From: Rickettsiales bacterium
Lineage (GTDB): Bacteria; Pseudomonadota; Alphaproteobacteria; Rickettsiales; UBA8987
DNA: 64,000 nucleotides
Direction of reading: 5' to 3'
Assembly (NCBI GenBank): GCA_020630095.1
Contig: JAHDCD010000010.1
Coordinates: 1 to 64,000, forward strand
The notes beneath the pieces are model-generated. The model did no database searches and was not told the DNA's origin. It was given only the letters and a program-made list of their open reading frames with translations. A program made the position numbers and the translations under genes. Of this stretch, positions 3,301 to 61,690 are shown piece by piece (the first letter of the stretch is position 1; each line of letters starts with the position of its first letter).

Positions 3301-5947
3301 TATTCAGGTCAATAAACACATTATCGTTACCTGCACCTAAATTAGCATCACCAGTTAAAGTACCTTTTACTTGAAGCTCGTTTGAAGTTGAGTCACCAGT
3401 AATCTGATTAGTAACAGTTAAAGTGTTACCATCATTAATAATTAGCGAACCTCTGTCATTTAATGCAATATCTTCAAAGCTATAGCTTCTATCTAAAGCT
3501 ACTGCACCTTGACCAGTAACATCAAGGTCTTCAATATTAATTAGATTATTACCAAGGGTTCTAGTTTGGTTTCTATCAAGAATAAACGCTATAGTATCTT
3601 CACCAGCGCCACCATCAATTTCACCATCAGCAATACCATTTTGTGAGAATGTAATTCTATCATCGCCGTTACCAAGTTGAATATCATCGGTAACTTGAGC
3701 TGTATCAGCAATTAAAATTTCATCATCGCCAGTATCAGCATCAATTTCACCATCAACAACAGCTTCATCTTTAATATCTAAATTATCGTCACCAACACCA
3801 AGTAAAATATCACCATTTACTTTAGCCTGATCATCAATTGTCAAATTATCATCACCAGACCCTGTATCAATGTCGCCATCAACAATAGCATCTCTTGAGA
3901 TTAAAATATTATCAGCACCAGCCAAAGTGTTAATATCACCAGCATTGTTTTGTACTAATAGTTCATCATCACCTTCAGTTCCTAAACCTTCATCACCAGT
4001 AAGGGCTTCTGTACAAACGCCGTTTAAGAATACTTCGTTAGGTTCACATTCTTCAGGGGTATCATCAGGATCACCAAAATCAACATTACCAGCGCTACCA
4101 GTTGTAGCATCATTACCATCATCAGTTTCATCTTCAAAACCTGTGCCACCATCATTCTCATTACCTGTGTCAGTACCGCCACCACCATTGTTATCAGCAC
4201 CTGAATTATCATCATCAATAAAGTCACAAATGCCAGATGAGCTAATAGTAGAAGTATCGTCAATTAGGATACATTTTAAATCACGAGTTGAGATAAACTC
4301 AAAATCATCAAGAATTACTAAGTTTTGAGCTAAAATTTCTGTTCTAATAGTTTTAAGGTCATTTAAAGCACCTTCACCAAATAAATCTTGGAAGATAATT
4401 AAATCTCTACCTTCACCACCATCCACTTCACTTAACGCTTCTGCACCAGTTACAGGGTTTTCAGTATAGAAACCGGCATCAGTTAAATTGTCAGCATTTA
4501 AAATAACCAATCTGTCATCACCGCCAGATAGATCAACTTGAGTGAAATAACCATCATTATATTCAAAAATATCATTACCATCTGCTAATGTAACTGTACC
4601 AGCGGCTAACGTAGCGCCACCATTCAGTGCAAATATATGATCAGTATCATCAAGCGCTATAATAGCAGTTGATTGTGAAATAAAGTCAGCTTCTAAACTA
4701 AGTTCAGAGCTATTTCTAAGGAATATAGTTCTAAGTTCTGTAAGTATAGAAGTAGAGGTCATTTCTACAACTGAATTATCAAGTTCAACAGCAGAAAAGC
4801 CAAAGTAACCATTATTATTCAGTCCAGCATCGCGCAGGTCACCAAATGGTAAAATTCTATCATTTGTAAAGTTCTGGAATAATACATCATCATTAAGCTC
4901 TGAACCAAAGTTACTGGCTACAGCTTCAATAACTATACTATTATCTCTTTGAACTAATTTATCATGCCCAGCACCCAGCTGAACAAAGTCAATCCTTGAG
5001 CTACCATTAAGTTCTAATAAATCATCACCAGAACCTGTATCTACTTGGTCAGCCGTTGAATCAAAAAATTCTACAACATCATTACCACCATAGAAGAACA
5101 TATTTTGTGCGCTTGAATTAGTGATTTTAAATGTTTCAACAGAGTCAGAGCCATATACATCACCTAAAGTAGAGTTTATAACTTCCGTATTTTGTCCATT
5201 AACAAGTAAGTCTAAAGGTCGTGAATTAAAATCTAATACTGTTAAGTCATCACTAGTTTCAATACCTTGTAATGAGTTAAACTCAGCCTGTGCATTCGCT
5301 TGATGATTAACTGGATAAGCAGATGAATAACATGAGTTATAGCAAGGAGCTCTTGTACCAGTCTTACCACCACATGTGGCTAAACATTGTGCTTCGGTTT
5401 GTAAATGAGAAACTTGTTGTAGTGCAGGGTCTGTTCTAAGGCCATCAACAAAAGCGCTATCATCAACAACAGTTGCTTCACCTCTAAGAGACTCAATACC
5501 AGCATCACCTGAAGGAGGGTCATTCGCTTCAGTACCACCACAATTTTCATCTTCTCTTGGATCACATACTAGTTCACCATTTCCAGTACCGCCAAAAATA
5601 TCGCCTTGACTGCCACCGCCGCCACCAGAGTCGCCACCGCCACCACCACCACCACCAAGTAATTGTTCAATTATCCCTTTAATCTGTTGGAAAAGTGCAA
5701 GTATTTCTTGGAAGCTCATTTGACCAAAAATATTACCACCCGCCGCTGCATTACCAGCTTGTCCACTAAGGGAATCTTGTGAGATAGTGTTATTCTCATG
5801 AGAATTACCACCTTGGAAGCATGTAGAACATGTTGCATTAGCTGTTTTAACGCTAACAGTCGCAGTAAATGTCGATAGAACTAAGGCGATAAACATAAAG
5901 ATCGCCAAATGTGAAATATGATTACGAATTTTTATAAATAATTGCAT
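317..5947 (-). CDS. Giant RTX-like autotransporter adhesin, copy 1
   Basis: A 1876-residue secreted surface protein. Residues 1 to about 38 form a signal peptide with a long charged N-region and an ANA cleavage site, followed by a CSTC motif. Near residues 95-125 is a glycine tract. Cysteine motifs (CLATCGG, CYNSC) lie near residue 190. The passenger (about 230-1450) is very acidic and built of repeats with GxGDD motifs, such as GSGDDNLTI and LGVGDDNLDI, reminiscent of calcium-binding RTX nonapeptides, alternating with modules of about 90-100 residues. The last 280 or so residues fit an autotransporter beta-barrel and end in Phe, as BAM substrates do. The start is supported by GAGGGTACT just upstream of ATG. 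The C-terminal 400 residues closely match the next gene, so the two are tandem paralogues. Adhesion or surface coating is inferred, not shown. Confidence 0.85.
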   Translation of the reverse strand: MQLFIKIRNHISHLAIFMFIALVLSTFTATVSVKTANATCSTCFQGGNSHENNTISQDSLSGQAGNAAAGGNIFGQMSFQEILALFQQIKGIIEQLLGGGGGGGGDSGGGGGSQGDIFGGTGNGELVCDPREDENCGGTEANDPPSGDAGIESLRGEATVVDDSAFVDGLRTDPALQQVSHLQTEAQCLATCGGKTGTRAPCYNSCYSSAYPVNHQANAQAEFNSLQGIETSDDLTVLDFNSRPLDLLVNGQNTEVINSTLGDVYGSDSVETFKITNSSAQNMFFYGGNDVVEFFDSTADQVDTGSGDDLLELNGSSRIDFVQLGAGHDKLVQRDNSIVIEAVASNFGSELNDDVLFQNFTNDRILPFGDLRDAGLNNNGYFGFSAVELDNSVVEMTSTSILTELRTIFLRNSSELSLEADFISQSTAIIALDDTDHIFALNGGATLAAGTVTLADGNDIFEYNDGYFTQVDLSGGDDRLVILNADNLTDAGFYTENPVTGAEALSEVDGGEGRDLIIFQDLFGEGALNDLKTIRTEILAQNLVILDDFEFISTRDLKCILIDDTSTISSSGICDFIDDDNSGADNNGGGGTDTGNENDGGTGFEDETDDGNDATTGSAGNVDFGDPDDTPEECEPNEVFLNGVCTEALTGDEGLGTEGDDELLVQNNAGDINTLAGADNILISRDAIVDGDIDTGSGDDNLTIDDQAKVNGDILLGVGDDNLDIKDEAVVDGEIDADTGDDEILIADTAQVTDDIQLGNGDDRITFSQNGIADGEIDGGAGEDTIAFILDRNQTRTLGNNLINIEDLDVTGQGAVALDRSYSFEDIALNDRGSLIINDGNTLTVTNQITGDSTSNELQVKGTLTGDANLGAGNDNVFIDLNTGATVNGTIDGGSGVDSYNFISSEDTAISSNGLTNFETIGVSGGAKFDLSGTDNGITGLTISDNGTELVIQSGNSYQTSVNGDDNSNTLTIDGILSGNVDLGGGADTLNINLATGSFNGTARGGDGLTDSVNLSDTAQSTNISLTDYREFETINLAGSTTYVTSGTNDTDLNTINLNDTSNLIISNGANVNTDISGSDDANEAVVLGGLNGAVNLNGGDDNLVYDLDSSGGINATLNGGSGTDNFQLNSSTTRAVSADVSSFEKLTLLGGGEITLQNNYGFDNVELDEGSDLSIGSNRTLTITNELLGDDLVNNINLNSGAVINASSVNLAGGNDIIRLSSNSQLNASSIDGGSGEDKVIYDQNTTQDINGANFVNVEILELDGAGDYTLKDSGSTFDFIGVINDSKLTFDTGTSNNLAVFGDNSGVEIDILGTNLGKIDTGSGNDIIGITDSYSADIDTNAGDDIINSDNATVRGTIDLGSGINSISGNITNSGEIITDTNLIVNGDYAQSSFGEYSVNVGSDNIATNRIISTGSSVLSGVINTSGINQSGLVAGDKITLVTAANGITDNGVTISSPTIANDLYGWNQAVNGTNLDLEYLYARLDCSNMADLTGDAKAVCMAISDSTADSRYSEEEIQNLLMVVNNAQSDDQADYLSGMNATGYISSNQAISRAVTAFHGIAHDRIFASDMADRLSSSYANVQNGGRNKIYEDFACGGYGGFVNGASSAGEGSHAYSSNSNGVFIAGDCVNDEAKVGVNIAYQTSSLDDDKNYSAATDMISVGAYASMKTTDGVILGASANIHSAGTDAVRTVMADSASAVNTGDFSTLVFSAKAEAGYDVKAGKLLLRPFGGLEYQVLESDEVIETGSGITHLGVDAYSSSRALLNIGGRAVYDKIWADKMIMASPYAEVELVTDIIGMEDAVDTRILDSVFSSSEASTSATRFKLGAGVDGTIFNDSGLNQHSIFGHLKYEAGIDESSSDSSLRLGYKYNF

Positions 5948-6299: not shown

Positions 6300-9200
6300 T
6301 TAGAAGTTATACTTATAACCTAGCCTTAAACTGCTATCTGATGACGATGCATCAATACCAGTTTCATATTTTAAATGACCAAATATATTATGCTGGTTCA
6401 AACCACTCTTACCAAACATTGAGCCATCGAAGCCAACACCCAGCTTAAATCTTGTAGAAGCTTCCTCAGCTCCAGTAGAGTTAAAGTTTTCATCTAATAT
6501 AGTAGCACCAATAGCATTATCTAAAGATAATAAGTCTGCCACAAGTTCAACCTCTGCATAAGGTGAAGCCATCATCATTTTATCGGCCCAAATTTTATCC
6601 ATTACCGCTCTACCACCAACATTAAATAATGCACGTGAGCTTGAATAATCTTCAACCATTAAATCTGTAATTCCTGTTCCAGTTTCAGAAACTCCATCAG
6701 AGCTTAGCATTTGATATTCTAAACCACCGAATGGACGTAATAATAAGTCACCTTTCTTTAAATCGTAACCCGCTTCACCCTTAGCTGAGAATACGAAGGT
6801 TCCAAAATCACCTGAAGCTGTACCGCTTTCACTACCAGCTACTAATGTTCTTGTGGTATCAGAAGATGCGCTATGAAAATTAGCTGAAGCCGCTAATTTA
6901 ACGCCATCAGATGTATCCATAGTACCATAAGCACCAATTGATAATATATTACTTGCTGAAGTATAATTATAATCACCATCTAAATCAGATGTTTGATAAC
7001 CTGCCGTTAAACCAACTTTCATTTCATCATTAGCACATTCACCACCTAAATATACACCATTAGAAGAAGCTGAATAAGCGTCTCTACCATCACCTGCTGA
7101 AGAGCTATTAACTAGGAATCCACCATAAGCACCACAACCGAAGTTTTGGAAAATTTGGTTTCTACCGCCATTTTGTACATTTGCATATTGTGCAGAAATT
7201 CTATCCGCCATATCTGATGCAAAAATTCTATCATGCGCAATATTATGGAATTGTGTAACTGCACGGCTTATAGACTGGTTAGTGCCAACAAAGCCACCAG
7301 CACCCATACTGTCTAAGTAATTCATTTGAGTATTACCAGCGCCATTATTCATAGCCATTAGCAATGCTTGAACTTCATCATCAGAATAAGTTGAACCATC
7401 GCTTGATGCTTCAGAAATTGCATTACAAAGGGCTTTTGCATCAGCATCTAACCCTTCAAAGTTAGCACAATCAGCGCGTGCATATAAATATTCTAAATCT
7501 AAATCAGAACCATTAACTGCCGTATTCCAGCCATATAAATCATTAGTAATGGCAGGGCCGTTAATAATTACACCAGAATCAGTCATTGAGCCAGAAGCAG
7601 ATGCAACAGTGATTGCGTCGCCTGCATTCAAATATTGTAAATCAGAAGATGTTAGGTTTTGAATTTCAATAACACCATCAATTATGGCATTACCAGCAAC
7701 GTTAAGTTTATTAAAATCAATAAAACCAACATTATTACCAACAGGTAAGGCAACAAGGGCATTAGAAGTAAATTTACCAGAATTTGTTTGCGTATAATTA
7801 CCATTAACATCAAGTTCATTAGGGTTAATAAGTTCACCAGAATTTATAATATTACCTTCAATTGAGTTATCACCTTCGCCTAAGTTCACCACACCAGTAA
7901 AAGTAGCATTATCAGATGCAATTCTATCGTTACCAAAGCCAGTTGTAATATTACCTGTATGAGTACCAGTTAGGCCGATTATATCATCGCCACTACCTGT
8001 AATAGTGTCACCTGCATTAGTACCTTCATAAATAATGCCAACGCCGTTATCGTCACCAAATACGTCTATATTATTTGTACTACCCGCTTGGAATACAAAG
8101 TTAGCGCCATCTGTAACATTAACTCTATCAAAGTTTATGTTGTTACCAGCTGAACCAAAATTACCATTAGCAACTTCTAAAATTTCAAAATTAGACATCT
8201 TAGCGGTATCAATAACCATAGTTCCTGTAGTGTCGAATAGGGCAGTGTCATTACCGCTACCACCATTAACTAAACCAGTAATATTGTTTGTAGAAGTAAC
8301 TATAACAAAATCATCACCATCAGATAAATCTAAATTACTAGTATCTAAAGTTGCACCATCAGCAATAGATATAAAATCATCACCTGCACCAGTATTAATA
8401 GTACCAGTTGCTAAAGTAGAATCTCTACCAAGGAAAATACTATTATCTCCAGCATCCGCGTTAATTGAATTTATAATATTGATATCAATGGAATCATTTA
8501 AAAGTATGCCTGTTCCGCTATTAATAGTTAGGTTTTCAAAATCATAATCTCTAGCCAGAGTCATCAACCCACCACCACTTAAAGTGGCAGTTTCAAAGCC
8601 AGATATAGCTCTATCCAAAGTTCTAGAGCCAGAGCTTGTAAATGTTATATTATCTGTACCAGCACCACCTTCAATAGTGCCTGTAATATTAGAGTTGTTA
8701 TCAAGGTTGTAAACTAGGCTATCATCGCCACCTTTAAGGTCTAAAGAGCCGTTATAACTCCCTTGTATATCAATGCTATTAGATTGATCAGAACCATTAA
8801 TGTCAGCATTAATATTAGCACCAGGAGCAAGAATTAAGCCTCCTCGATCATTAAGGGCAATTAAATTTAAATCTGTATCATTTGAACCAGTAAGGTTGAA
8901 AATTGAATTACCATCAAAGTTAATCTTTTCAAACTCGCGTAAATTACTCAGGTTAAAGTTAGTGCTTGAACTATTAGCTTCAATATTGGCTATATCTAAA
9001 ACGCCTTCACCACCACGTGCTGTACCATTATAGCTACCAGTATCAAGATTAACTGTAAATTCATCAGACCCATTACCTAAGTCAACATTACCAGTTAAAT
9101 CACCTTCAACAGTTAGTTTGTTTCGTGTTGAGTCACCATTTACTGTAGCATTGTAACTTGCCCCTTGAGATATTAACAATTCAGTATCTTTATCGGAAAT

Positions 9201-12200
9201 AGTTAAAGCACTTACAGTTGAATTAGAGCCAATTAGCGTAAATCTTGCACCACCACCAACAGCTAAACCTTCAAAATTAGTAAAGCCATTAGGCGCACCA
9301 TTAATAGTTTGTGAAGTTGCGCTACTAAAACCTACAGAGTCAACACCATCGCCACCATCTGCAGTACCCGTAATGTTACCACCAGCATCAAAATCAATTA
9401 ATAACCTGTCATCACCGCCATTAAGTGCTACATCACCATCAACAGTACCTTTAACAGTTAATTGATTATTAGTATTATCACCAATAACATCAGAAAATAA
9501 CGTTCTATCGTCTGCAACAGTAAGTTTACCATCATTACTAATTAAGGTCTGATTAAATGAGTAATCATTATCAAGAATCAGTTCACCATCACCAGTTACA
9601 GATAAAATTTCAAAATTATTAATTTCATTTGAAACATTTCTAATTTGATTAAGGCCCATTCCAAAAATAATTCGGTCAGAACCATCTTCACCATCTATAG
9701 ACCCATCAGCAGAGCCATTACCTTCAAAGGTTATGATATCATTATCTTCACCAAGTTTAATATTTCCACCAACAGTAGCATTACCAGAAATTAAAATACT
9801 ATCATTACCACCTTCACCATCAATGTCAGCTAAGGCAGAGCTATTATCTAATATATTAAGAATATCATTACCTGCACCTAAGAATATATCATCATTAGCG
9901 CTCGCTTCATCATCTAGCGTAATAATATCGTTACCAGCGCCACCAAGTATTGTATCAGAAACAACACCATCTTGAGATAAATTAAACTCGTCATCACCAT
10001 CACCAAGCACAACATCAGCATTAATAGTACCTTGGTTAATTATTTGATCATCATTATCTGAAGCCGTTATAGTATCAGCCGAAATCGTTGCATCAGGAGA
10101 AATCGCTATATCAATAAAGTCATCATCAGCCTGAGCAGTATTATTATCTTGAACTATGTCATTGTTATTTTGACTAGTTATATCGGTCGTTAAATCAATA
10201 TCACCTGCGGTCGTAATAGTGCTATCAATAAGTCCGCTATCGGTAGTCGTGTCATCTACGTTATCTACGCGCTCTTCAACACATATTGAAACAGTGTCGC
10301 CATCAGTAGTTGTTACTGTAGTTAAAATTTCATTTGCTTCACATTCAGTACTACTATCATCAGATGAATCATCATCACCATCTTCATCAATGTCGGCATT
10401 TCCAATAGAGTCTACACAAGCGCCATTTTCATCAATAACTTGTCCTTCAGTACAGCTTTGTACTTCTACACATTCTGAATTACCTACAGGTGCAGTTTCA
10501 ACTCCTTCAGATGTACTATTACAAACTAAAAGGCACGTATCTGAAAAGTCTGAATAAACAAACTCACCATTCAAAACAGATTGCCCTTCACATTGTTGTC
10601 TAGCCGTGGAAGTTGAATCATTGCCCGAATCGTTATTATTTGAACCAGAGCCACCGCTACCAGAACCGCCACCTAAGCCGCCTAAACCATTTAAAATACT
10701 AGCAAGTCCGCTATCATCACCTAAAAGTCCACTTTCATCTACAGTCCCCGTACCACCAGTACCACCAGTACCACCACCAGTACCTTCACCTTCAGGGTCT
10801 CCAGTGTTTGAACCATCACCAGTATCGGTGCTATTACCATTTTCATCTGTTTCATTATCATCATCGGTATTATCACCCGAATCACCCGAATCAGTTTCAT
10901 CTTCTTCTACAAGGTTACAACCATTTGTAGATCTGCCCTCAGGTGTATCTTCAGAGCTGAAGTGAATACAGTTACCATCAGCCTCACCGGCTACTAACCA
11001 CTCAAATTCTTCAAATTCAAAATCTGTATTAAATTTTTCAATATCATCTCTTAACTGTCTTAGTTCTTCGAATGTAGCATTCTCAGAAAGTTCTGAGAAA
11101 ATAACCATATCAATACCATCATCACCTATCGCTCTACCATCTTCATCGTTATTACTAGGGTTATCTTCATCGCTATTATTTTCATCATTACCTGGCAGGC
11201 CTGAGTTAAAGAAGTTATCAGCTTCAATTATAAAGAAGTCATCACCATCACCAAAATTAATTTCAATAAATTCACCTTCATCAAAAATAACAGTATCATC
11301 ACCATCATCTAAATCAAAAGTTTGACCATTAAATTCACCGCCAGTAAATCTAATAGTATTATCCGTTTCATCACCAAATAAAGATGCAGAGTCATTAGAC
11401 TTAAAGCCATCAGCAAACTCAATTCTAGAGCCATTAAGAATATTAAACTGTCTATTATATAGGTCTGAAGTTGTTTCACCTGTAAAAATTACTTCGGAAG
11501 TATCAACATTAATTTTACTAAAACCAAGGTACGAATTTTGAAGGCCAGACGGGTCCAAATTGCCAAGTAATATGGTAGCAGGGTTATCTCTAAGAGTTTT
11601 TGCTATACCATCTATATGGTTAAAAAATATAAGGGTATTTTCTGTATCAGTTAAAGCCTCAACCAAACTTTCACCAGTATCGGTTTCAACGCCAATAGTT
11701 TGCCCTGTTAATGCTCCAATAGTTTGACCAGATCCACTAATAACAAATGTATCAGCGCCATTACCACCACCGAGTGCTTGAGAAACAGTTGATACAGCAT
11801 TAAGGAAAACAACATCACTATCGTCACCTAGATCACCTTTTTCAACAACACCTAAGGCATTTACTTCTAAATAATCATTTTGAGCAAAAGTAACGAGTTG
11901 TTGAATTCTACCTCTATTGTTAACTTTTATCGTTTCACCATTGATAGAAGCAAATCCTAGTGTGTTTGTTTTATCGGGAATAATAACTAAAGATTCAGAG
12001 CCTTGTAAATCTGAACCAATATGCTGAAATATAGTAGTATCTTCTAATTCAGTGCTACCATTTGTTTGAAAATAATTAGGAATAGGTCTTCCTGTATCAG
12101 TTAAAAAACCATCTATAGTAACTTCTTTATTGTCAGAAAATAAATTTTCTAAGTCACTAAGGTAAGAACTTTGAGCACCCGCTGAAGGTGATGTTAAATT

Positions 12201-12482
12201 AATTTGAGCCCATAACGCAAGATTCGTAACAGGATCAGGGTCTAAATTAGGAGCTAAGCCATCGCCAGTAACATCTGTATCAAATTGGTTGGCATCGCCT
12301 TCTAGCGTACCATTTGTAATAATCTCCCAATCAGAAAGACTAGAGGGAGAAACTAAATCTGCTATTTTAGGAGTTGCATCAGCTTTAGACGCAAAAGTTA
12401 AAACCGCAGTTAACATAACTACAGCTATGGGAAGAATCCCCAATAGATTGAATATTTTTTTACCCTTTGTTTTTTGTGCCAT
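6300..12482 (-). CDS. Giant RTX-like autotransporter adhesin, copy 2
   Basis: A 2060-residue paralogue of the neighbouring gene. The frame is open from an ATG at 12503, but GAGGGTAA lies just before the ATG at 12482 (MAQKTKGKK...), matching the Shine-Dalgarno of copy 1, so I take that start. A signal anchor of about 40 residues (NLLGILPIAVVMLTAVL) is followed by an N-terminal passenger, an Asp/Ser/Gly-rich low-complexity stretch (about residues 520-620), a Cys-containing segment (about 635-700, with CEGQSVLNGEF and CTEGQVIDENGAC), and then at least four modules of about 95 residues with GxGDD motifs and a NFE/FE-(I/T)LxVxG signature. The C-terminal 280 or so residues form the predicted beta-barrel and end YKYNF as in copy 1. 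Probably surface displayed; the ligand is unknown. Confidence 0.85.
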   Translation of the reverse strand: MAQKTKGKKIFNLLGILPIAVVMLTAVLTFASKADATPKIADLVSPSSLSDWEIITNGTLEGDANQFDTDVTGDGLAPNLDPDPVTNLALWAQINLTSPSAGAQSSYLSDLENLFSDNKEVTIDGFLTDTGRPIPNYFQTNGSTELEDTTIFQHIGSDLQGSESLVIIPDKTNTLGFASINGETIKVNNRGRIQQLVTFAQNDYLEVNALGVVEKGDLGDDSDVVFLNAVSTVSQALGGGNGADTFVISGSGQTIGALTGQTIGVETDTGESLVEALTDTENTLIFFNHIDGIAKTLRDNPATILLGNLDPSGLQNSYLGFSKINVDTSEVIFTGETTSDLYNRQFNILNGSRIEFADGFKSNDSASLFGDETDNTIRFTGGEFNGQTFDLDDGDDTVIFDEGEFIEINFGDGDDFFIIEADNFFNSGLPGNDENNSDEDNPSNNDEDGRAIGDDGIDMVIFSELSENATFEELRQLRDDIEKFNTDFEFEEFEWLVAGEADGNCIHFSSEDTPEGRSTNGCNLVEEDETDSGDSGDNTDDDNETDENGNSTDTGDGSNTGDPEGEGTGGGTGGTGGTGTVDESGLLGDDSGLASILNGLGGLGGGSGSGGSGSNNNDSGNDSTSTARQQCEGQSVLNGEFVYSDFSDTCLLVCNSTSEGVETAPVGNSECVEVQSCTEGQVIDENGACVDSIGNADIDEDGDDDSSDDSSTECEANEILTTVTTTDGDTVSICVEERVDNVDDTTTDSGLIDSTITTAGDIDLTTDITSQNNNDIVQDNNTAQADDDFIDIAISPDATISADTITASDNDDQIINQGTINADVVLGDGDDEFNLSQDGVVSDTILGGAGNDIITLDDEASANDDIFLGAGNDILNILDNSSALADIDGEGGNDSILISGNATVGGNIKLGEDNDIITFEGNGSADGSIDGEDGSDRIIFGMGLNQIRNVSNEINNFEILSVTGDGELILDNDYSFNQTLISNDGKLTVADDRTLFSDVIGDNTNNQLTVKGTVDGDVALNGGDDRLLIDFDAGGNITGTADGGDGVDSVGFSSATSQTINGAPNGFTNFEGLAVGGGARFTLIGSNSTVSALTISDKDTELLISQGASYNATVNGDSTRNKLTVEGDLTGNVDLGNGSDEFTVNLDTGSYNGTARGGEGVLDIANIEANSSSTNFNLSNLREFEKINFDGNSIFNLTGSNDTDLNLIALNDRGGLILAPGANINADINGSDQSNSIDIQGSYNGSLDLKGGDDSLVYNLDNNSNITGTIEGGAGTDNITFTSSGSRTLDRAISGFETATLSGGGLMTLARDYDFENLTINSGTGILLNDSIDINIINSINADAGDNSIFLGRDSTLATGTINTGAGDDFISIADGATLDTSNLDLSDGDDFVIVTSTNNITGLVNGGSGNDTALFDTTGTMVIDTAKMSNFEILEVANGNFGSAGNNINFDRVNVTDGANFVFQAGSTNNIDVFGDDNGVGIIYEGTNAGDTITGSGDDIIGLTGTHTGNITTGFGNDRIASDNATFTGVVNLGEGDNSIEGNIINSGELINPNELDVNGNYTQTNSGKFTSNALVALPVGNNVGFIDFNKLNVAGNAIIDGVIEIQNLTSSDLQYLNAGDAITVASASGSMTDSGVIINGPAITNDLYGWNTAVNGSDLDLEYLYARADCANFEGLDADAKALCNAISEASSDGSTYSDDEVQALLMAMNNGAGNTQMNYLDSMGAGGFVGTNQSISRAVTQFHNIAHDRIFASDMADRISAQYANVQNGGRNQIFQNFGCGAYGGFLVNSSSAGDGRDAYSASSNGVYLGGECANDEMKVGLTAGYQTSDLDGDYNYTSASNILSIGAYGTMDTSDGVKLAASANFHSASSDTTRTLVAGSESGTASGDFGTFVFSAKGEAGYDLKKGDLLLRPFGGLEYQMLSSDGVSETGTGITDLMVEDYSSSRALFNVGGRAVMDKIWADKMMMASPYAEVELVADLLSLDNAIGATILDENFNSTGAEEASTRFKLGVGFDGSMFGKSGLNQHNIFGHLKYETGIDASSSDSSLRLGYKYNF

Positions 12483-12522
12483 TTTACCCTCGTTTTTACA
12501 CATTTCGTAAAAATAGTTTTAT

Positions 12523-22253: not shown

Positions 22254-23513
22254 ATGAGAATACTTACCATCACTGCAATTGTAGCTTTGAGTCTTTCAGC
22301 AACTTCATGTAAACGAAACCTATATTATGCAAACGGCGAAGATGCCCGCGTAGTAACTAAGAAAACTGTAACAAAAGAAACAGTAGAGAAATTTACTGCT
22401 CCTAAAACTCCTGCCGAAGCCCTTACCGCGCTAGAGCAAACTAGAGTTCGTGGTATCAATAATTATTATCAAGATAAAGCGCAATTCGCTCTTCCAGCAA
22501 ATAATTCAGCACTTAACGTATCATTTGACCCTAAGAAAGAATATGAGGGCTACTACAAAGTGGGCGCTCCATACACAATTAAAGGTAAGCAGTATACACC
22601 AGAAACAGATTTAAGCTATGAAGAAACAGGCATGGCATCTTGGTATGGCCCTAACTTTGTTGGTAAAAAGACTGCTAATGGTGAAATCTTTAACCCACAG
22701 GATATTTCTGCGGCTCATAGAACATTACCTCTTCCATCAATTGTTCGCGTTGAAAACTTAGAAACAGGCAAAGCTATTTTAGTTAGAGTAAACGACAGAG
22801 GTCCTTACGCTAAGGACAGAATTATTGATCTCTCTGAACGTGCTGCCGAACTTGTTGGTATGAAAGATGATGGCACGCATAAAGTGAAGGTAACTTATGT
22901 GCACGATGCAACTGTTGCTATGCTTCGTCATCCAAGTCATGCAAACTACAAGAACCCTTACGCTAACCAAATTGTAGAGGGTGTTCCTAATACTCCACAA
23001 GTAGCCGCAAGGTTACAACAAGTGGCAGCTAGGGCAGCTAACCCAACTCAACTAAAAGCAGTTACTTTGCCAACGGCAACTATACCGCAAGTTAAAGTTC
23101 CAGTTGGTCAGGTTATTAAACCTTTAGGAGCAACAGTTGCTCCAGTAACCCCACCTCTACCTTCTGGTTATGAGCTTTATCCGGTGGATAAATTCCGTAA
23201 TAAGCAATATGTAGGTTCTCAAAATGAAATTTTAAAGGTTAATTCATTACCCACAGCAAATTTACCACAAGGAGTGAATCCAACTAGTAAATATATCCAA
23301 GCAGGTTCATTTACCGATTATGGCAAGGCTAAAGGTATAACGGATGCTTTATTCGCAAAATATCCTAACGTTTATGTCGATAGGGTTTATGTAAACAATA
23401 CTCAGCTATATAGAGTAAAAATTGGACCATATTCAGATGTTAATAAACTAGCGGCTGATTTTGAACGTATCAAACAAGATGGTATTACTAATGCTATCGC
23501 TACAAGCAAATAA
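22254..23513 (+). CDS. rlpA: RlpA-like septal lipoprotein transglycosylase with SPOR domain
   Basis: The 419-aa lipoprotein starts MRILTITAIVALSLSATSC, giving a lipidated Cys19. The double-psi beta-barrel spans about residues 120-215: GMASWYGPNFVGKKTANGE, then RTLPLPSIVRVENLETGK, VRVNDRGPYAKDRIIDLS with the catalytic-type Asp, and ELVGMKDDG. A Pro/Ala-rich linker leads to a C-terminal SPOR domain (KYIQAGSFTDYGKA ... LYRVKIGPYSDV) that in known RlpA binds denuded septal glycan. Its stop overlaps the dacA start by one base (TAATG). Expected to be anchored in the outer membrane. Confidence 0.92.
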   Translation: MRILTITAIVALSLSATSCKRNLYYANGEDARVVTKKTVTKETVEKFTAPKTPAEALTALEQTRVRGINNYYQDKAQFALPANNSALNVSFDPKKEYEGYYKVGAPYTIKGKQYTPETDLSYEETGMASWYGPNFVGKKTANGEIFNPQDISAAHRTLPLPSIVRVENLETGKAILVRVNDRGPYAKDRIIDLSERAAELVGMKDDGTHKVKVTYVHDATVAMLRHPSHANYKNPYANQIVEGVPNTPQVAARLQQVAARAANPTQLKAVTLPTATIPQVKVPVGQVIKPLGATVAPVTPPLPSGYELYPVDKFRNKQYVGSQNEILKVNSLPTANLPQGVNPTSKYIQAGSFTDYGKAKGITDALFAKYPNVYVDRVYVNNTQLYRVKIGPYSDVNKLAADFERIKQDGITNAIATSK

Positions 23514-47474: not shown

Positions 47475-49085
47475 TTACACAATTCCATCTTTTTCTATAG
47501 ATTCAAGCTCACTAGCTTTATTAATACCATTAGATTCCGGCGCAGGTTCAGTAAAAGGGTTTTCTATATCAGTCATTTTAGAAATTAGTTCCCTTATTGC
47601 ATTAATATCCATAAGAGACCTTATATCACCATCAAAATCACGCGGAAGTAGACTTCTCCCCTTACGAGTAGTTATATCAGGGCAGTCAGGAACTTTACCA
47701 GATGTCCAACATTTTAGAGCTCTAGCCATTCTATCTTCTCTTGGCTTTTTATCGAAAACTTCAAATCCAACTTTTTCTTCAAAAAAGCTTACACTTATGT
47801 CTTTATCTAGATATAAACTGCCACCTTCAATTCTATTAGATAAGTCTATTTTTACCTCGCCATTTTCTATTAAGTCTTTAAATAGTTTATAAAATCTATC
47901 CCCTTTTTTAGTCAAGCCAAGGCCACTCCTTTTATCTCTATCAACATCTTCTACATTTAAAATAGTACCATCAGGCATTTTTATTTCACGAGTTCCCATA
48001 TCTTTACTAATTCTTACTGTAAAAGCATGGTCATTTTTTGGCGGATTATACAAAATAAATGAATTAGACCGGCCATTGATATGGTTATCATTTTTTAACC
48101 ATAAGCAATTATTTGCCTTGTCGGCTGCATCTTGTAACTCAGCAGTATTAGTTACTTCAGAAATTATCCATCCCTCAAATTCTCCATCTTGAATAACTAT
48201 TTCTTTAGGGGTCATTATTCCACTCCATGAACCAGATCTCCTTGGAATAGTTCTATAAGAATTTTCATGCACATTAGAAACTTCTACATATCGGCTTGAA
48301 ATTTCGTTTAAATCGCTAAGAGTTACCTTATTGGCAATCATTTCCTCTATTAAATTAGAACTTATCTCTTCAACTAGCCTATTAACTTGCCATTCATTAA
48401 GTGACTTTAAGGCTTCTTCAAAACAAAAACTGGCTAATTCAGGTAATACGCATGAAGATACGAACTCAAAAACCATTTCTTCCAATTTATCTGTACCAAA
48501 ATTTTCTAAAGATTCGCTAACTTTTACCCAGTCAACATTTTGATCATAATTATTTAATAATAGTCCTATTTTTTCAGGTGATTTAGCAACAATTTTAGCA
48601 CAGTGAATTGCATGTATTACAGAGCCTCTAGGGTTTTCTTCACCATCTTTACCTATAAATCTTTCAGAGGGAGCTTTAACGATTGTATCAACAAAACTTT
48701 CATTTAAACCATCTTGTATTTCAATTCCAAGCAAGTTTAATTCTTTTCTATTCTCTTTTGAAATATGCCTGTTTTTTATAATAGGTATAAGAGTGCTCGT
48801 ATTAAATCTCATTTGAGCTTTAACAAATTCATCTATTTTTTCTGTAAAAGTATAAACTTTATCAAATAATTTTGCTCTATTATCATTATCGTCAGGAGAA
48901 GATACACTCCATTCAGCTAATAATTCTATAGCTATTTCCATAAAGTTTTGCTGACCAATAAATATACTTTTTCCTTCATTAAGCTTTAAAAGTGTGTTCA
49001 GCTCTTCTAGAGCGTCATTAATATCTCTGCCTTGTCGAAAAATATTCTTTAATTCGTCTTTTGTGTAAACGGATGTTTTATCCAT
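47475..49085 (-). CDS. Hypothetical protein of 536 residues
   Basis: I do not recognise the family with confidence. It starts MDKTSVYTKDELKNIF with no signal peptide or membrane segment. The N-terminal 270 residues are predicted helical and acidic. Around 290-375 a segment reads ELQDAADKANNCLWLKNDN and then GRSNSFILYNPPKNDHAFTV and TREIKMPDG. The order of Cys, Gly, a short strand and a hydrophobic 'TVR' recalls PcfJ-like proteins of plasmids and phages, but this is only a pattern resemblance. The C-terminus has a Cys-containing WTSGKVPDCPDI and a Ser/Pro-rich tail. It lies 30 bases after purN on the same strand. Confidence 0.65.
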   Translation of the reverse strand: MDKTSVYTKDELKNIFRQGRDINDALEELNTLLKLNEGKSIFIGQQNFMEIAIELLAEWSVSSPDDNDNRAKLFDKVYTFTEKIDEFVKAQMRFNTSTLIPIIKNRHISKENRKELNLLGIEIQDGLNESFVDTIVKAPSERFIGKDGEENPRGSVIHAIHCAKIVAKSPEKIGLLLNNYDQNVDWVKVSESLENFGTDKLEEMVFEFVSSCVLPELASFCFEEALKSLNEWQVNRLVEEISSNLIEEMIANKVTLSDLNEISSRYVEVSNVHENSYRTIPRRSGSWSGIMTPKEIVIQDGEFEGWIISEVTNTAELQDAADKANNCLWLKNDNHINGRSNSFILYNPPKNDHAFTVRISKDMGTREIKMPDGTILNVEDVDRDKRSGLGLTKKGDRFYKLFKDLIENGEVKIDLSNRIEGGSLYLDKDISVSFFEEKVGFEVFDKKPREDRMARALKCWTSGKVPDCPDITTRKGRSLLPRDFDGDIRSLMDINAIRELISKMTDIENPFTEPAPESNGINKASELESIEKDGIV

Positions 49086-50670: not shown

Positions 50671-52605
50671 TTAATAGATTCCTCCAGTACCGATTAATAT
50701 CGGGTGTACTACACTAGAATCATATGATTTTACAGGGATTTCTTTTTTAACTGCCATAACAGGAGGTTTTGCTACTAGCTCAACTTCTCTTCTAATAGCT
50801 CTCTTTTTAGGAGAGTCTGTAACAGTTACTTTAACTTCGTTTGTAGGTTCTTCTTTCTCTTCAACCTCAACAACTGTCTCAACTTCTTTAATATCTTTTA
50901 TTTCAACTTCTTCCACCTCTTCAATTTTAACAGGCTCAAAGTTTGCAAATTCTTCGATTGGGTCAATATTATCTTCAACTAATTTAACAGCTTTAACTTC
51001 TTTAACAGGTAAGTTGCTTGTATCAAAATTAGCAAATTCATCCACAGGTGTTTGCTTTTCGGTATCTTTAGTAACATTTACCGAGCTTCCATCTAATTCT
51101 TGCCAAGATTTCAATGCAATCATTTTTCCATTCTTATTCTTAACAAGCTTTATACCTTCTGGCTGAGAAATAGGGCGAGTAGGTATATATTTTGCAGCAT
51201 TGCTTGTGAAGTCTTTAAATATAGTTTCTGCATTGCCTTTTTCATGGTGTACAGCAACTATAACTTCAGGGTTAAAGCCAATAACTAAATTATCAGATTT
51301 GTAATAGATGAAATTCTGATCTCTATTCATTAGAGTGTAAGTTTGGAATACGCTTTTATCGGAAGCTAGAGCATTCCCTTTAACTTCCTTAGGCTCGCGT
51401 TTATAGGTAATCTTTTGATTATCATCATAGATGAAGTTTACATATAAATCCTCAAAAGCCTTACCGCTTGAAGCTAATATAGAATACTTCTCTAATAGCT
51501 CCTCTAAGCCATCTTTTTGAGGTAAAAACTCTTCTGAAATATTCCCTTTTAACTCAGAGCGTAGAACCGATGCAAATTCATTAGAGTTAATTCTATGTTC
51601 ATGTAGACGTTTCTGCCCAACTTTATCATTAGGGTGGAAGCCCATCTCAAATGCGCCTAATAAATATAAAGGACTCAGCGCAGTTTCATCATATTCAATT
51701 TTATCAGACTTAATATGCTTCGCTAAAATTGAACCATCTTTAGCAGACTTAACAATAATAGATGCCTTTCTAGTCTCCAATGCATTAACAATAATAGATT
51801 GAAGCTTTTCATCTAAAGTGGAGTAGATAATATCTCCAGATTTCATATCTTTAACACGCGCTTCATAAATAATTTCTGGCAGGTATTTGTTGTTGTAATA
51901 ATCAAACTTCGCTTTCCCGAAGTAATAAACGTCTGAATTATTGATATTCTCAGCTTCATCTTTACTTACAACTTTGTCGGTAACTAAGCCTTTAACGGCC
52001 TTTGTGCGTTCATAAGTAAGGTCGGTGTTATTATTATAAGACTTATAAATTGAATATAAAGTCAGCACATCTTGATTATTAAGTTGTTGAATTTCTTTAC
52101 CTAAATACTTATCAGCCGCTTCATCAAATCCTAAAATAAATGGTGAGAACTTAAGTGTATTTAAAAAATTATTCTCTAACTCATCTTTCTTAAATTTATC
52201 ATTTAATTTATGCGCTAGAATTTCTTTCCTAAAGTCTCTATTTTCTTCACTTATTGGCAGAATATTATCTGCAACTTTATGGGCTATACTTCTATTAGAT
52301 TTTCTACCAATAATAGTTTTCGCCAATGCAGGGTAATAACTTCCAAGCTCTTTATCACCGCTTAAAAACAGCCTTTCAACAAGTGGTGGAATAATCGTAT
52401 AATTCTTATTTCTAAAACCAGATATCTTACCGCCCAAAGAGCTTAAAACTTCATATTCAATTGGTTTTTCTAAACTAAGGTACTTATCTTTAATTTTAGA
52501 AGATTCTCTTTTTTCGAGTATAAATATTGCCAATGCTGCCGCGGCAAGCACCATAAGTATAAATAAAAGAATCCAGAAGATTCTAAATTTGCGTAAAATA
52601 CTCAT
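50671..52605 (-). CDS. Degenerate class A penicillin-binding protein (PBP1A-like pseudoenzyme)
   Basis: A 644-aa protein with one N-terminal membrane helix (residues 10-32). Residues about 80-190 follow the GT51 transglycosylase outline (RSIAHKVADNIL, FRKEILAHKLNDKFKKDELE, NNFLNTL, AADKYLGKEIQQL). The catalytic ED motif reads GDKELG and the TITQQ motif is lost. Residues about 255-480 follow the transpeptidase outline (SPLYLLGAFEMGFHPND, SDNLVIGFNPEVIVAVH) without SxxK, SxN or KTG. An acidic tail with two EFANF repeats completes it. Synteny supports the call: amiC followed by mrcA is usual in alphaproteobacteria. The gene is intact and in an operon, so a structural or regulatory role is more likely than decay. 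Confidence 0.72.
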   Translation of the reverse strand: MSILRKFRIFWILLFILMVLAAAALAIFILEKRESSKIKDKYLSLEKPIEYEVLSSLGGKISGFRNKNYTIIPPLVERLFLSGDKELGSYYPALAKTIIGRKSNRSIAHKVADNILPISEENRDFRKEILAHKLNDKFKKDELENNFLNTLKFSPFILGFDEAADKYLGKEIQQLNNQDVLTLYSIYKSYNNNTDLTYERTKAVKGLVTDKVVSKDEAENINNSDVYYFGKAKFDYYNNKYLPEIIYEARVKDMKSGDIIYSTLDEKLQSIIVNALETRKASIIVKSAKDGSILAKHIKSDKIEYDETALSPLYLLGAFEMGFHPNDKVGQKRLHEHRINSNEFASVLRSELKGNISEEFLPQKDGLEELLEKYSILASSGKAFEDLYVNFIYDDNQKITYKREPKEVKGNALASDKSVFQTYTLMNRDQNFIYYKSDNLVIGFNPEVIVAVHHEKGNAETIFKDFTSNAAKYIPTRPISQPEGIKLVKNKNGKMIALKSWQELDGSSVNVTKDTEKQTPVDEFANFDTSNLPVKEVKAVKLVEDNIDPIEEFANFEPVKIEEVEEVEIKDIKEVETVVEVEEKEEPTNEVKVTVTDSPKKRAIRREVELVAKPPVMAVKKEIPVKSYDSSVVHPILIGTGGIY

Positions 52606-54436
52606 TAATTGATTTCAATATAGCGTTAGTAATTTTGTTTTTGTACGAAGCGCTCTTTAATAATTTTTCATCCACCCTATTAGATAAGAAGCCCATTTCA
52701 ATCAGCACTGAAGATATATCCGCGCCAGTTAAAACACCTAAGCTCGCCGTACGTTTAGCCTCACGCACAAGACGGGTATTATTACCAACATTCTTAATAA
52801 CTAAGTTAGCAAATGTATTAGAAAGCGATGTTGTATTATCCTGTACAAGGTCAATAATTGTATTTTTCAAGCGCGTATCAAGCTTTGAAACATCAAGCCC
52901 TGCAATAGTTTTAGACTGTCCCTTGTCATCCTTACCTTGTTCAATTTTCTTTTTCTCACGTTCTGCACGCGCCTTAGATAAAGTATAAACCGAAACACCT
53001 CTAGCCTCTGTATTCGCAGCGCTATCAACATGCATAGATATAAACAAGTCCGCATCCTTATCTCGTGCAAATTTAACACGCTCACGCAAGGCAACATACT
53101 TATCCTTAGCGCGCGTTAAATGAACAGTATAACCAGCACGTTTCAACTTAGCGCTTAAGTTCTTTGCGTAATCTAAAGTAAAGTTCTTTTCATAAGAGCC
53201 AGTTTTAGAAACCGCCCCTGGGTCAACGCCACCATGCCCAGCATCAATAACAATCACACGTTCAGAATTTTTAGTTCTAGGAATTTGCGGTCTAACTTGC
53301 TTCTTAATAACCTCAGGAGCTGGTCTAGCAATAGCCTTAACATTCGGCTTAGTAACAGGTTTGGCAATTGTTTTTGCTGTAGGTTTTTTAGCTATTTTAG
53401 GTTTCTTTAATTCATCAAATGCAGATTTCGGCTCTTCAGGGTATTTAGTAAAAGTTTCAGACTTTAATACACCTCTAGGGTTAGAAGGCGTAGGCTTAAC
53501 AATATCTTTAATAATAGCTTCCTTAACCTCAGGCTCTTCAGGGTATTTAGCAATCAAAACCTCTTCAGACTTCAACTTTCTTTTATAACCAGAAGGCTTG
53601 AAGTACAGCATAGGCGGATCAAATACTTGCCCTAACGGCTTTATTTCCCAACCTTCAGCTTTCATTTTACGCAACCTATCAAGCTCAGCCTTAACTAAGG
53701 CTCTTTTCTCAGCAGGAACGCTCATTAATAACAACTCTTCTCTAGTTGGAGTCTTTACCGAGGCCTTACTTGGTGCAGGCGTGCCAAATGCCTCTTTAGC
53801 TCTTTCTTCAAAAGATTTTGCTTTTGAAGCTGGCGCAGGAGGTTTAGGCTTTAAGAAGTTAGCCAACTTAGCTTGATTTTGTTTTGCTCTACTTATTTGA
53901 GCATTAAATGCATTATTTTGCGCAGAGGGTTTATTTAGGCTATTTTCGGGTGCTTTAGGCGCTTCAGCTTGCACAGTGCCAATAGATGGTGTGTAAGGCT
54001 TACCTAACTTAGGCGCTTCAGAAAAGCTATATTTTGAACGAAACACCTCAAATTCAACCACTAAAGTAACATCATTACTATCAGGGTAAGTTTGTAAGTA
54101 ATTATTTGTAATCTCAAAGTCAGAGCCACTAGTTTCAATATCCGCAGCTAACCTAACAGTTCCAGCTTCAGGTGCGCCAAAACGAATATTCTTAACAAAA
54201 TCCCCTTTACCACCTGCAACAATTTGATTATTCAGCAGTGCATCGGGAATATCCACCACCACGCGGTTTGGATTTTTCAACACGAATGCCTGATAAACAG
54301 AGTTCCTATCAAGCAGTAATTTAATTTTACCCCCCTTAGAACTTTCAGTTATTTCAAGAGTTTTTATTACAACTTCAGCCTTCACAATAGTGAAAGAGAA
54401 TATAATAAGCAGCGATGTAATTAGTCTATATGCCAC
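52583..54436 (-). CDS. amiC: N-acetylmuramoyl-L-alanine amidase with AMIN domain
   Basis: Periplasmic zinc amidase that splits septal peptidoglycan. The 617 residues comprise a signal peptide (LITSLLIIFSFTIVKA), an AMIN domain (about 20-130, with FVLKNPNRVVVDIPDALL), a long Pro/Lys-rich linker (about 150-390), and the Amidase_3 domain with VIDAGHGGVDPGA (Zn His), YEKNFTLDYA (Zn Glu), LFISMHVDSA (Zn His) and SSVLIEMGFLSN (catalytic Glu). An insert after SKARAEREKKK is present as in AmiC-type enzymes, where the matching helix is autoinhibitory. It overlaps comEC and the PBP1A-like gene. Confidence 0.93.
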   Translation of the reverse strand: MAYRLITSLLIIFSFTIVKAEVVIKTLEITESSKGGKIKLLLDRNSVYQAFVLKNPNRVVVDIPDALLNNQIVAGGKGDFVKNIRFGAPEAGTVRLAADIETSGSDFEITNNYLQTYPDSNDVTLVVEFEVFRSKYSFSEAPKLGKPYTPSIGTVQAEAPKAPENSLNKPSAQNNAFNAQISRAKQNQAKLANFLKPKPPAPASKAKSFEERAKEAFGTPAPSKASVKTPTREELLLMSVPAEKRALVKAELDRLRKMKAEGWEIKPLGQVFDPPMLYFKPSGYKRKLKSEEVLIAKYPEEPEVKEAIIKDIVKPTPSNPRGVLKSETFTKYPEEPKSAFDELKKPKIAKKPTAKTIAKPVTKPNVKAIARPAPEVIKKQVRPQIPRTKNSERVIVIDAGHGGVDPGAVSKTGSYEKNFTLDYAKNLSAKLKRAGYTVHLTRAKDKYVALRERVKFARDKDADLFISMHVDSAANTEARGVSVYTLSKARAEREKKKIEQGKDDKGQSKTIAGLDVSKLDTRLKNTIIDLVQDNTTSLSNTFANLVIKNVGNNTRLVREAKRTASLGVLTGADISSVLIEMGFLSNRVDEKLLKSASYKNKITNAILKSINEYFTQI

Positions 54437-56295
54437 AGTCTGTTACCTACAATATTACCCACATTATCGTGAGTAATTTTATCATCAAGATATATTAACA
54501 ATGTCCCTTGATTATAATATTTTTTATCAAGAAATTGCTCATATTCAGTATAAATACTTATATCTTTTTGATGGCTAATATCCTTCCCAAGCCACTCGCT
54601 CCACATTGAAACCACATAAGATGCTTTACGTTTTTTATTAACTAGCAATTCACGCGGAGTATTAACGGCAATAACCCCTTTTTGTGGTAGTATTAAAGCG
54701 TCGGGAAGCTTTTGATTTATATATATAATAACACCAATTAGCGCAGGCAGTGCTGCGGTGTATCTAAGCTTTGTTTTAAAAAAGCAAAATATAACTATAC
54801 CAGCACTAAAACATGCTAATGCAATACCATTTATTTTCGGCATGCGGTAGCTAGATATATCAAATGATGATATAAAATATGCCCATTCATTCATAAATTT
54901 AATTGGGTATAAAAATATATCAACCACGCCCATCAATGGCATAAGCATAAGTTGGATAATCATTAATGGCATAATCACAATTGTAAGGAATGGTATTGCC
55001 AGTAAATTCGCTATCACGCCAGAGGGAGCAACATTGCCAAAATGAAATAACGCAAACGGCGCGGTTGCAAGTATCGCCACCGCAGAAGATAGCATAGTAA
55101 ATAGTAGGGTTTTAAAACCAAACTTTTCAAAGCGCCTATCAATAAATTCATAAAAAGTTATTAAAACCAGAGTCGCCGCAAAGCTCATCTGAAAACTTGG
55201 CGTTAATATAGAGTGCGGATTAAGCAGTATAATAATTATCGCCGCGGCGGAAAGTGCACGCTTAGAGTCCGAATCTTTATCAATCAATATTCCAAACAGA
55301 TATATACCCGCCATAATATATGCCCGCGTAGCAGACGTTGGAAAATCCGTTAATGACAAATACCCAAGCCCGATAATTAGCGCAATTACGGCAGATATTT
55401 TCTTAACATTATAATAGATATTAACTTTAGGTATAAGATTAATAACTATGCGCAAATAGCTGAAAAATATAACTATAATAATCGCCATGTGCAACCCGCT
55501 TATGGCTAAAATATGTCCCATACCCGAATTTCTATAAGCCTCCAGCAAGCTTTCGGGTATTTCAGATTTATTAGCAATCGTTAGCGCCTTAGCAATGGAC
55601 CTAACCTCAAGCTCGTGGCTACTATTATCAATTTTCTTAGATGTAGCCTCACGCAAACTTTGATTTAAATATGCCAAGCTAGATTCATTAGCTTTAAAAA
55701 CCTTAATCTCAGAGAGTGAAAAACCAACTGCATCAATCCTATCATAATAAGCATAGCGGTTAAAATCATAACCATCAGGATATGGCGGATACTGCGGAGG
55801 CTTCGAGAACTTAGCCTTAAACGCAACCCTATCGCCAACTCTAACATTATCATTAAACTTAGTGCGTACGTTTAAACGCGCTATTTCAGGAACCTTATTA
55901 AGTGGTAAATTCTTCGTTTCAGGAGTCCATAAATCTACGTTCTTAATCCATATTCTATGCCCAAACTCCTTCTTTTCCGCCTTCGTTAAGTCCGCACGAA
56001 CCCAATAAACTTGATCCTCGTTTATATCTTTATATTCATAAATATTTTGCGAGTAGAAACTTGAATAAGCAAAACCCAGCAAGGGCAGTATGACTAAAAA
56101 TATTAAACCAGACGCTTTGCCTTTTAAGAAAGCCAAAGATATCGCGAATAAAAATAAACCAAGAAATGCCAGCTTATAATAAGTGGGTTCAAAGTTTAGT
56201 GAGAAATAGTAAATAACGCCAACCGCAAACAGCGGAGCAATAAAGTTGAATATGCCACGATATTCCTTTGCTATATTTACTCTAAAACTTTCCAT
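54421..56295 (-). CDS. comEC: ComEC/Rec2-type DNA uptake channel protein
   Basis: Polytopic inner-membrane protein of 624 aa. After an N-terminal pair of helices comes a soluble OB-like part (about 70-205: NEDQVYWVRADLTKAEKK ... RVGDRVAFKAKFSKPPQYPP), then the competence domain with YRNSGMGHILAISGLHMAI, the invariant core motif, and about eight further membrane helices. The C-terminal metallo-beta-lactamase domain of full-length ComEC is absent; only about 80 soluble residues follow the last helix. Known homologues carry single-stranded DNA across the inner membrane. It overlaps pyrC by 19 bases and amiC by 16. Confidence 0.88.
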   Translation of the reverse strand: MESFRVNIAKEYRGIFNFIAPLFAVGVIYYFSLNFEPTYYKLAFLGLFLFAISLAFLKGKASGLIFLVILPLLGFAYSSFYSQNIYEYKDINEDQVYWVRADLTKAEKKEFGHRIWIKNVDLWTPETKNLPLNKVPEIARLNVRTKFNDNVRVGDRVAFKAKFSKPPQYPPYPDGYDFNRYAYYDRIDAVGFSLSEIKVFKANESSLAYLNQSLREATSKKIDNSSHELEVRSIAKALTIANKSEIPESLLEAYRNSGMGHILAISGLHMAIIIVIFFSYLRIVINLIPKVNIYYNVKKISAVIALIIGLGYLSLTDFPTSATRAYIMAGIYLFGILIDKDSDSKRALSAAAIIIILLNPHSILTPSFQMSFAATLVLITFYEFIDRRFEKFGFKTLLFTMLSSAVAILATAPFALFHFGNVAPSGVIANLLAIPFLTIVIMPLMIIQLMLMPLMGVVDIFLYPIKFMNEWAYFISSFDISSYRMPKINGIALACFSAGIVIFCFFKTKLRYTAALPALIGVIIYINQKLPDALILPQKGVIAVNTPRELLVNKKRKASYVVSMWSEWLGKDISHQKDISIYTEYEQFLDKKYYNQGTLLIYLDDKITHDNVGNIVGNRLWHID

Positions 56296-60805: not shown

Positions 60806-61690
60806 ATGCCAGTACATATTACAGACCAAAATCACGTTGTATCACAAGCCGAATATAGTTTATCCGGTGCAACGCATACCCTAGACTATACAAAATCAAG
60901 CTTTAACCTAACGGAGCTTGGTGGAATTGAAGGTCGCCATAGAACCTTTATCTCAGGTACGCGCGAAAGTTATAATCCGGTAGCAATACGTCCAGCATCG
61001 CTAACAGGTGCATCTAATGTTACTATTTCAGGCAATACAATTACTAAAACGGGTGCTAATGGCTGGGACGGCTCAGCTTATTCAGTTGATGAATTTGATG
61101 GGCTATCAGACTTTGCCGTAGAATTTGAAGTAAATAGCGTAGCAGACCAGCGCAATATGTTTGGTCTAAATTCAGACTGGACAACAAATACAAGTTATAA
61201 CACCATTGATTTCGCCATTTACCAAGTAAATAACTACGTTCAAATTTATGAAAATGGAGCTAATAAAGGCAGCTTTAATACCAATACATTTGCTGTAGGT
61301 GCTAAGCTTGGCGTAAGATACCTTAACGGCAAAATTGAATATACTGTTAATGGTGACATTGTTTACACAAGCACTAACTCGCCAACATTCCCAATGCGCA
61401 TAGATACTTCAATTCATCGTCAAAATGATGCTTTATCCAATATATCTATTTATGATAACCAAATTCCACAAAGCTTTAACTTGGATATAATCGGCAATGC
61501 AGATGAGGAATTATCTGATGAGCATAAAGAGGCTTTAGAATTTTATGAACTATACCCGCTTAACGGCAGTAAATATTCATATTTAGAGTTCTTGAAAAAT
61601 CCAAATTCTGTACCCGCAGTAAATTATCCTATTGAGGTACAGCATGTTTACCAGTTCGTTGAGGATATAAATAAGATAGATATTCCATAA
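60806..61690 (+). CDS. Lectin-like (SPRY/ConA-type) phage tail-associated protein
   Basis: A 294-aa protein. Residues about 60-210 form a beta-sandwich domain recognisable by ITKTGANGWDGSAYSVDEF, FAVEFEVNS, RNMFGLNSDWTTN, YNTIDFAIYQVNNYVQIYEN, GVRYLNGKIEYTVNGDIVYT and FPMRIDTSIHRQNDAL, a ConA-like module common in phage fibres and secreted proteins. The C-terminal part (HKEALEFYELYPLNGSKYSY) is helical. There is no signal peptide. Cotranscribed with the preceding fibre-like gene and ending at a bidirectional terminator before priA. Confidence 0.6.
   Translation: MPVHITDQNHVVSQAEYSLSGATHTLDYTKSSFNLTELGGIEGRHRTFISGTRESYNPVAIRPASLTGASNVTISGNTITKTGANGWDGSAYSVDEFDGLSDFAVEFEVNSVADQRNMFGLNSDWTTNTSYNTIDFAIYQVNNYVQIYENGANKGSFNTNTFAVGAKLGVRYLNGKIEYTVNGDIVYTSTNSPTFPMRIDTSIHRQNDALSNISIYDNQIPQSFNLDIIGNADEELSDEHKEALEFYELYPLNGSKYSYLEFLKNPNSVPAVNYPIEVQHVYQFVEDINKIDIP

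Follow-up and report, generated by a model that had tools for sequence, protein, structure and literature searches.

An uninterrupted mrcA (PBP1A) orthologue without the catalytic motifs of either active site in a Rickettsiales genome

The open reading frame at positions 50671–52605 (reverse strand) of the window, the stretch of 64 000 nucleotides analysed here, is on sequence comparison an orthologue of mrcA, encoding the class A penicillin-binding protein (aPBP) PBP1A, in which all of the catalytic motifs tested have been lost from both active sites. Reading the 644-aa product as a pseudoenzyme is well supported. We consider it fairly probable that this former PBP1A is now an aPBP pseudoenzyme under selection, acting as a non-catalytic binding partner of a complex of SEDS protein and class B PBP (SEDS-bPBP) and/or of AmiC.

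The gene was found to be a real ORF with an ATG start, and a pseudogene with a broken frame was rejected as there is no stop codon or frameshift. Its start overlaps the stop of amiC, making co-translation probable and suggesting that the two genes are translationally coupled, and it ends 12 bases before purM. The order ComEC-amiC-mrcA seen in the window is that of its own family, and in one family member (G003) the same order includes an intact mrcA of 828 aa. Among 80 alphaproteobacterial amiC loci scanned in named genomes, mrcA was located directly downstream of amiC on the same strand in 57, and in these the motifs were intact except where a contig end or an assembly gap cut the gene. One mrcA that apparently lacked the motifs (locus L158) was rejected because of an assembly gap. 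The coordinates of the locus and of the features described below are listed in Table 1.

Table 1. Features of the degenerate mrcA gene and its neighbours, with positions in the window
Feature	Position	Strand	Basis
Degenerate mrcA (class A PBP/PBP1A) orthologue, 644 aa	50671..52605	-	ORF; hhalign E 1.9e-18 over aa 4–490; Pfam; NCBIfam
C-terminal GGIY; GIY ending typical of mrcA in the order	50674..50685	-	Alignments
Acidic E/V/K-rich tail, aa 496–640, mostly absent in orthologues, predicted disordered	50686..51120	-	Model, sequence, alignment
Second tail motif DPIEEFANFE, aa 548–557	50935..50964	-	Sequence
First tail motif TPVDEFANFD, aa 519–528	51022..51051	-	Sequence
Transpeptidase-like domain, aa 244–495, shortened by many in-frame deletions	51121..51876	-	Z 15.9, rmsd 3.8, 242 residues to 4oon PBP1a; hhalign E 8e-10
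KTGT deletion point, after aa 436	51297..51298	-	Alignments
SxN site, here SNE, aa 341–343	51577..51585	-	Alignments
SxxK site, here TALS, aa 308–311	51673..51684	-	Alignments, hhalign
GT51-like lobe, aa 61–224; C-terminal part well modelled, old catalytic region (~aa 83–102) low confidence	51934..52425	-	Z 13.8, rmsd 3.0, 148 residues to 3nb6; hhalign E 8e-8
GT51 motif III site (RKxxE), here RDFRK, aa 123–127; second conserved Glu is Lys	52225..52239	-	Alignments
GT51 motif II site (STITQQ), here SIAHK, aa 106–110	52276..52290	-	Alignments
GT51 motif I site (ED..F..H), here SGDKE, aa 82–86; catalytic Glu lost or misplaced	52348..52362	-	Alignments, hhalign
N-terminal membrane anchor, ~aa 8–32	52510..52584	-	Hydrophobic stretch; predicted helix pLDDT 85–95
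amiC (AMIN + amidase_3), long linker, overlaps PBP gene start by 23 bases	52583..54436	-	ORF; Pfam; zinc-ligand motifs present
comEC-like gene, conserved upstream neighbour of amiC-mrcA	54421..56295	-	Pfam; same in G003

AmiC has retained its zinc-ligand motifs. At 617 aa it is longer than the AmiC of family relatives (up to 441 aa), the extra length being due to a long Pro/Lys-rich linker (aa ~105–390) that joins the AMIN and amidase domains and in which KYPEEP occurs at aa 297 and again at 331. The linker and the PBP remnant's tail may have evolved in concert. Elsewhere in the window, adjacent genes for giant autotransporters of 1876 and 2067 aa were found at 317–5947 and 6300–12503 (both reverse strand); only the PF03797 beta-domain was recognised in them, and the passengers belong to no Pfam family. 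Proteins of 536 aa (47475–49085, reverse strand, adjoining purN) and 294 aa (60806–61690, forward strand) also had no Pfam family.

Assignment of the gene to mrcA rested on profile comparisons as well as on gene order. Pfam detected a partial GT51 match (aa 123–195, E 8.7e-9) and no match to the PF00905 transpeptidase domain in the 644-aa protein. The match to the NCBIfam PBP1A model TIGR02074 (E 8.5e-13) scored 47.9 bits, far under the cut-off of 508.75, and an HMM of intact mrcA gave 43 bits vs approximately 840–1260 for intact full-length copies. When hhalign was used with a profile of 22 intact mrcA proteins as the target, the whole protein matched over most of its length, and the GT half and the TP half, each aligned alone, also matched independently (Table 1). 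The profile search suggested for the original prediction thus recovered both halves with hhalign but only part of GT51, and no transpeptidase, with Pfam. Together with the gene order in the family, the independent matches of the two halves indicate a genuine mrcA orthologue in the conserved position after amiC, as had been proposed. GIY is the ending of several mrcA proteins in the order, and the window protein ends in GGIY.

Divergence from the orthologues is considerable, with 22% identity compared with ~45% among the orthologues themselves. In a quick tree the degenerate mrcA lay on an end branch of ~10 changes per column, a length that makes its placement unsure, and the nearest rows by path were all mrcA; the mrcA of locus L096 joined those of the window's family. 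A tree of amiC held the family together but gave the window no firm place inside it.

The catalytic sites were examined by reading the motif columns in alignments with 11 order-level mrcA orthologues and with 35 intact orthologues, in which ED..F..H, G.STITQQ, RKxxE, SxxK, SxN and KTG vary little or not at all. In the GT51 domain, the ED of motif I corresponds to D84-K85 in one alignment, or to the G-D given in the original prediction, and the Phe that follows is lost; as the register is ambiguous here, a change of E to D, a change of E to G and loss of the E are indistinguishable. G.STITQQ is replaced by SIAHK with deletion of the conserved Gly and Ser, and in motif III the Glu has changed to Lys. 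In the transpeptidase domain, SxxK (SAFKP in orthologues) has become TALSP, with Ser changed to Thr and Lys to Ser, SRN has become SNE at the SxN site, and KTGT is deleted. The features of an active GT51 (the motif I Glu, STITQQ and the motif III Glu) and of an active DD-transpeptidase (SxxK, SxN and KTG) were therefore lacking, and the absence of both active sites claimed in the original prediction was upheld at every motif tested. In E. coli PBP1A, GTase activity is blocked when the motif I Glu (E94) is mutated, and a mutated catalytic serine (S473) leaves the TPase inactive (PMC4632607). With STITQQ, the motif III Glu and the surrounding sequence lost as well, residual GT activity through a Glu to Asp change in motif I was considered unlikely.

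Losses were not confined to the motifs. Only 28 of 105 columns invariant in the orthologues are kept, the other 77 being changed or deleted. The earlier description of the homologue as intact holds for its unbroken frame but not for its length, since ~230 conserved columns, including the insert between the GT51 and TP domains, have been lost in ~16 separate window-specific deletions of at least 3 conserved columns each, a count that is alignment-dependent; all are in frame.

The fold was predicted using AlphaFold2 with homologues, for the full-length protein and for a version trimmed to aa 34–495. The mean pLDDT was 50.6 for the full length and 63.0, representing moderate confidence, for the trimmed version. 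Most of the GT51 helices had values of 77–89, falling to near 42 in the old GT51 catalytic region (~aa 83–102). A GT51 lobe and a penicillin-binding TP fold were both present in the predicted model, and the comparisons of these two parts of the trimmed model with 3nb6 and with PBP1a (4oon) are included in Table 1. No unrelated fold was predicted, and the class A PBP outline noted originally over the GT51 and transpeptidase regions was borne out by profile and predicted fold alike. The model is guided by the aligned intact relatives and so indicates that the sequence is compatible with a class A PBP fold rather than proving it.

Beyond the transpeptidase-like domain lies the acidic tail of 145 residues, which contains two copies of EFANF that differ in two of their five codons, both silently. 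The new tail with its repeated motif and the extreme length of the branch would fit a protein that has acquired another function, with the old PBP fold binding lipid II, glycan strands or some other envelope ligand without catalysis and unrelated to the SEDS machinery. The synteny with amiC has been kept, however, and nothing specific indicates another ligand, and we regard this explanation as improbable.

Several indirect tests were consistent with the earlier suggestion that the frame is held by selection. The codon log-odds of the degenerate mrcA (0.336) and its synonymous codon bias (0.115 bits per codon) were close to those of amiC (0.353 and 0.126 bits per codon); other neighbours had synonymous biases of 0.014–0.188 bits per codon, and the coding log-odds were positive in every 50-codon block of the gene. 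In a neutral simulation to the observed divergence, begun from the mrcA of G003 as a living stand-in for the ancestor, a mean of 17.5 stops accumulated with a minimum of 7 in 300 runs, and none was observed in the gene. The normal codon bias, the lack of stops, the in-frame deletions and the new acidic tail together favour selection on the product. Selection on the protein would then cover most of the period of divergence, with a recent loss of selection possible, and it is probably purifying.

These data bear on the main rival explanation, namely that the lineage is losing its class A PBP and the gene is a decaying remnant that has passed out of selection with its frame still unbroken. Repeated losses of aPBP genes have occurred in Rickettsiales and in other groups (PMC8406291), two family members have no GT51 match (see below), and most of the invariant columns are no longer conserved, all of which would be expected of a remnant. 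However, neutral drift to such divergence should have introduced many stops, the codon bias is normal, the deletions are all in frame, and the frame shares bases with amiC and has acquired a tail. Decay is rated as rather unlikely, though selection may have been lost recently after a long selected phase. Orthologues in relatives do keep intact motifs, one part of the finding named in advance as counting against the original prediction; of the other part, relaxed selection on this copy, codon usage, frame and stop counts gave no sign, although it may have set in recently.

The host genome (1.6 Mb in 13 contigs) was scored as 100% complete with 0.02 contamination, and the search for another active PBP1 that had been proposed found no other GT51 or class A PBP in the rest of it; a second active aPBP elsewhere in the genome was thus rejected. 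An active aPBP might be missing from the assembly, the gene in the window being mis-assembled or foreign, and with 13 contigs a small gap is possible. Such an artefact is highly improbable given the completeness score, the position of the gene inside a 65-kb contig with the gene order typical of the family, codon usage that matches its neighbours and the finding of no closer foreign relative. The genome contains two SEDS proteins, MreB, four Mur ligase matches and two class B PBPs in which SxxK, SxN and KTG are intact, namely a PBP2 scoring above the TIGR03423 cut-off and an FtsI-like protein. A bypass by LD-transpeptidases was rejected as no YkuD was found in the genome. A peptidoglycan wall would also fit with the RlpA-like lytic transglycosylase, containing DPBB and SPOR domains, that is encoded at 22254–23513 (forward strand) in the window. 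The gene content corresponds to that of peptidoglycan-intermediate (PGi) bacteria in having SEDS and bPBP and no active aPBP, the Mur ligases being those of the lipid II genes that were tested, and the aPBP-derived gene is present here without catalytic motifs.

When relatives were surveyed, class A PBPs were intact in three family members (G003, G005 and G006) and no GT51 match at all was found in two others, G001 (97% complete) and G002 (73%). In both of the latter (loci L077 and L078) the gene next after amiC is not mrcA but one for an ABC transporter. Any role of the degenerate protein therefore seems dispensable in relatives. A weak GT51 match in G004 came from a gene at a contig edge, and this was rejected as a second degenerate copy because the gene is cut by the GC-rich edge. 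With that case set aside, the window genome was the only one among 174 genomes of the order and 289 of the class in which the best GT51 match was weak (E 1e-9); in the other surveyed genomes with GT51 it was E 1e-53 or better. One large family of the order had no GT51, as is the case for Anaplasmataceae. No other degenerate homologue was found among 55 relatives or, at E 1e-8, among 343 genomes of the order, where the one extra match (G087) was an intact aPBP of a second type. A search of genome contigs by peptide pattern also found no degenerate form.

Under the pseudoenzyme reading, glycan polymerisation and cross-linking would be left to two SEDS-bPBP pairs, FtsW with the FtsI-like PBP and RodA with PBP2. 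Of the PBP1A chain, the membrane anchor, the core of the TP fold and the C-terminal portion of GT51 would survive, while both catalytic centres were erased and the acidic tail was added. The protein would most probably sit at the inner membrane as a binding partner with no catalysis of its own, using the tail and its old PBP1A surfaces to dock the SEDS-bPBP complex and/or AmiC. There is precedent for such interactions and for roles that do not depend on catalysis, as PBP1A interacts with PBP2 in E. coli (PMC10591338), and catalysis-independent roles have been described for PBP2B of B. subtilis (PMC5656894) and for SpoVD and PBP3 of C. difficile (PMC12713402). A scaffold role for the dead PBP1A is plausible, and its expression, its binding partners and a scaffold or regulatory role are putative. 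Two points count against a scaffold: with so few invariant columns retained, conservation is low for a protein with numerous interaction surfaces, and no partner is named by the sequence. We put at about even the chances of the fuller proposal, in which a naturally occurring class A PBP, both sites lost, is still expressed and has been retained to partner the SEDS-bPBP (or amidase) machine non-catalytically in a group whose relatives are losing aPBPs.

Non-catalytic roles of class A PBPs are hard to probe in model bacteria because deleting the protein also deletes the activity. The two are separated in a naturally occurring PBP1A that lacks both active sites, in a genome with a wall built by SEDS-bPBP only. 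Should cells need the dead protein, a structural or regulatory role for PBP1A would follow. The dead PBP1A may also represent an intermediate in the loss of class A PBPs by Rickettsiales-like lineages. Class A PBPs are known to have been lost in Rickettsiales, and we found no report or description of a doubly dead yet retained one in the literature searched, which took in few subscription journals.

Compared with other alphaproteobacterial PBP1A/mrcA proteins, the window protein is alike in its position after amiC, N-terminal anchor, domain order, match to the profile in two halves, GIY end and predicted fold. It differs in having none of the tested catalytic motifs, in the deletion of the inter-domain insert and other conserved columns, in its long acidic tail and in its low identity to orthologues that are much closer to one another. 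Natural aPBP loss in Rickettsiales leaves wall synthesis to SEDS-bPBP, and the PGi bacteria Orientia, Wolbachia and Anaplasma marginale are wall builders of this kind (PMC8406291). The window genome resembles them in its peptidoglycan precursor genes, in SEDS and bPBP and in the lack of an active aPBP. However, those bacteria were scored as without any identifiable aPBP gene, and that report nowhere uses the words degenerate, truncated or pseudogene, whereas the window genome keeps an open, catalytically dead frame. For the class B PBPs PBP2B, SpoVD and PBP3, the parallel is that a PBP can have a structural function when its active-site serine is missing. The inactive forms there were engineered from active enzymes, whereas the window protein is a natural class A PBP with both sites gone.
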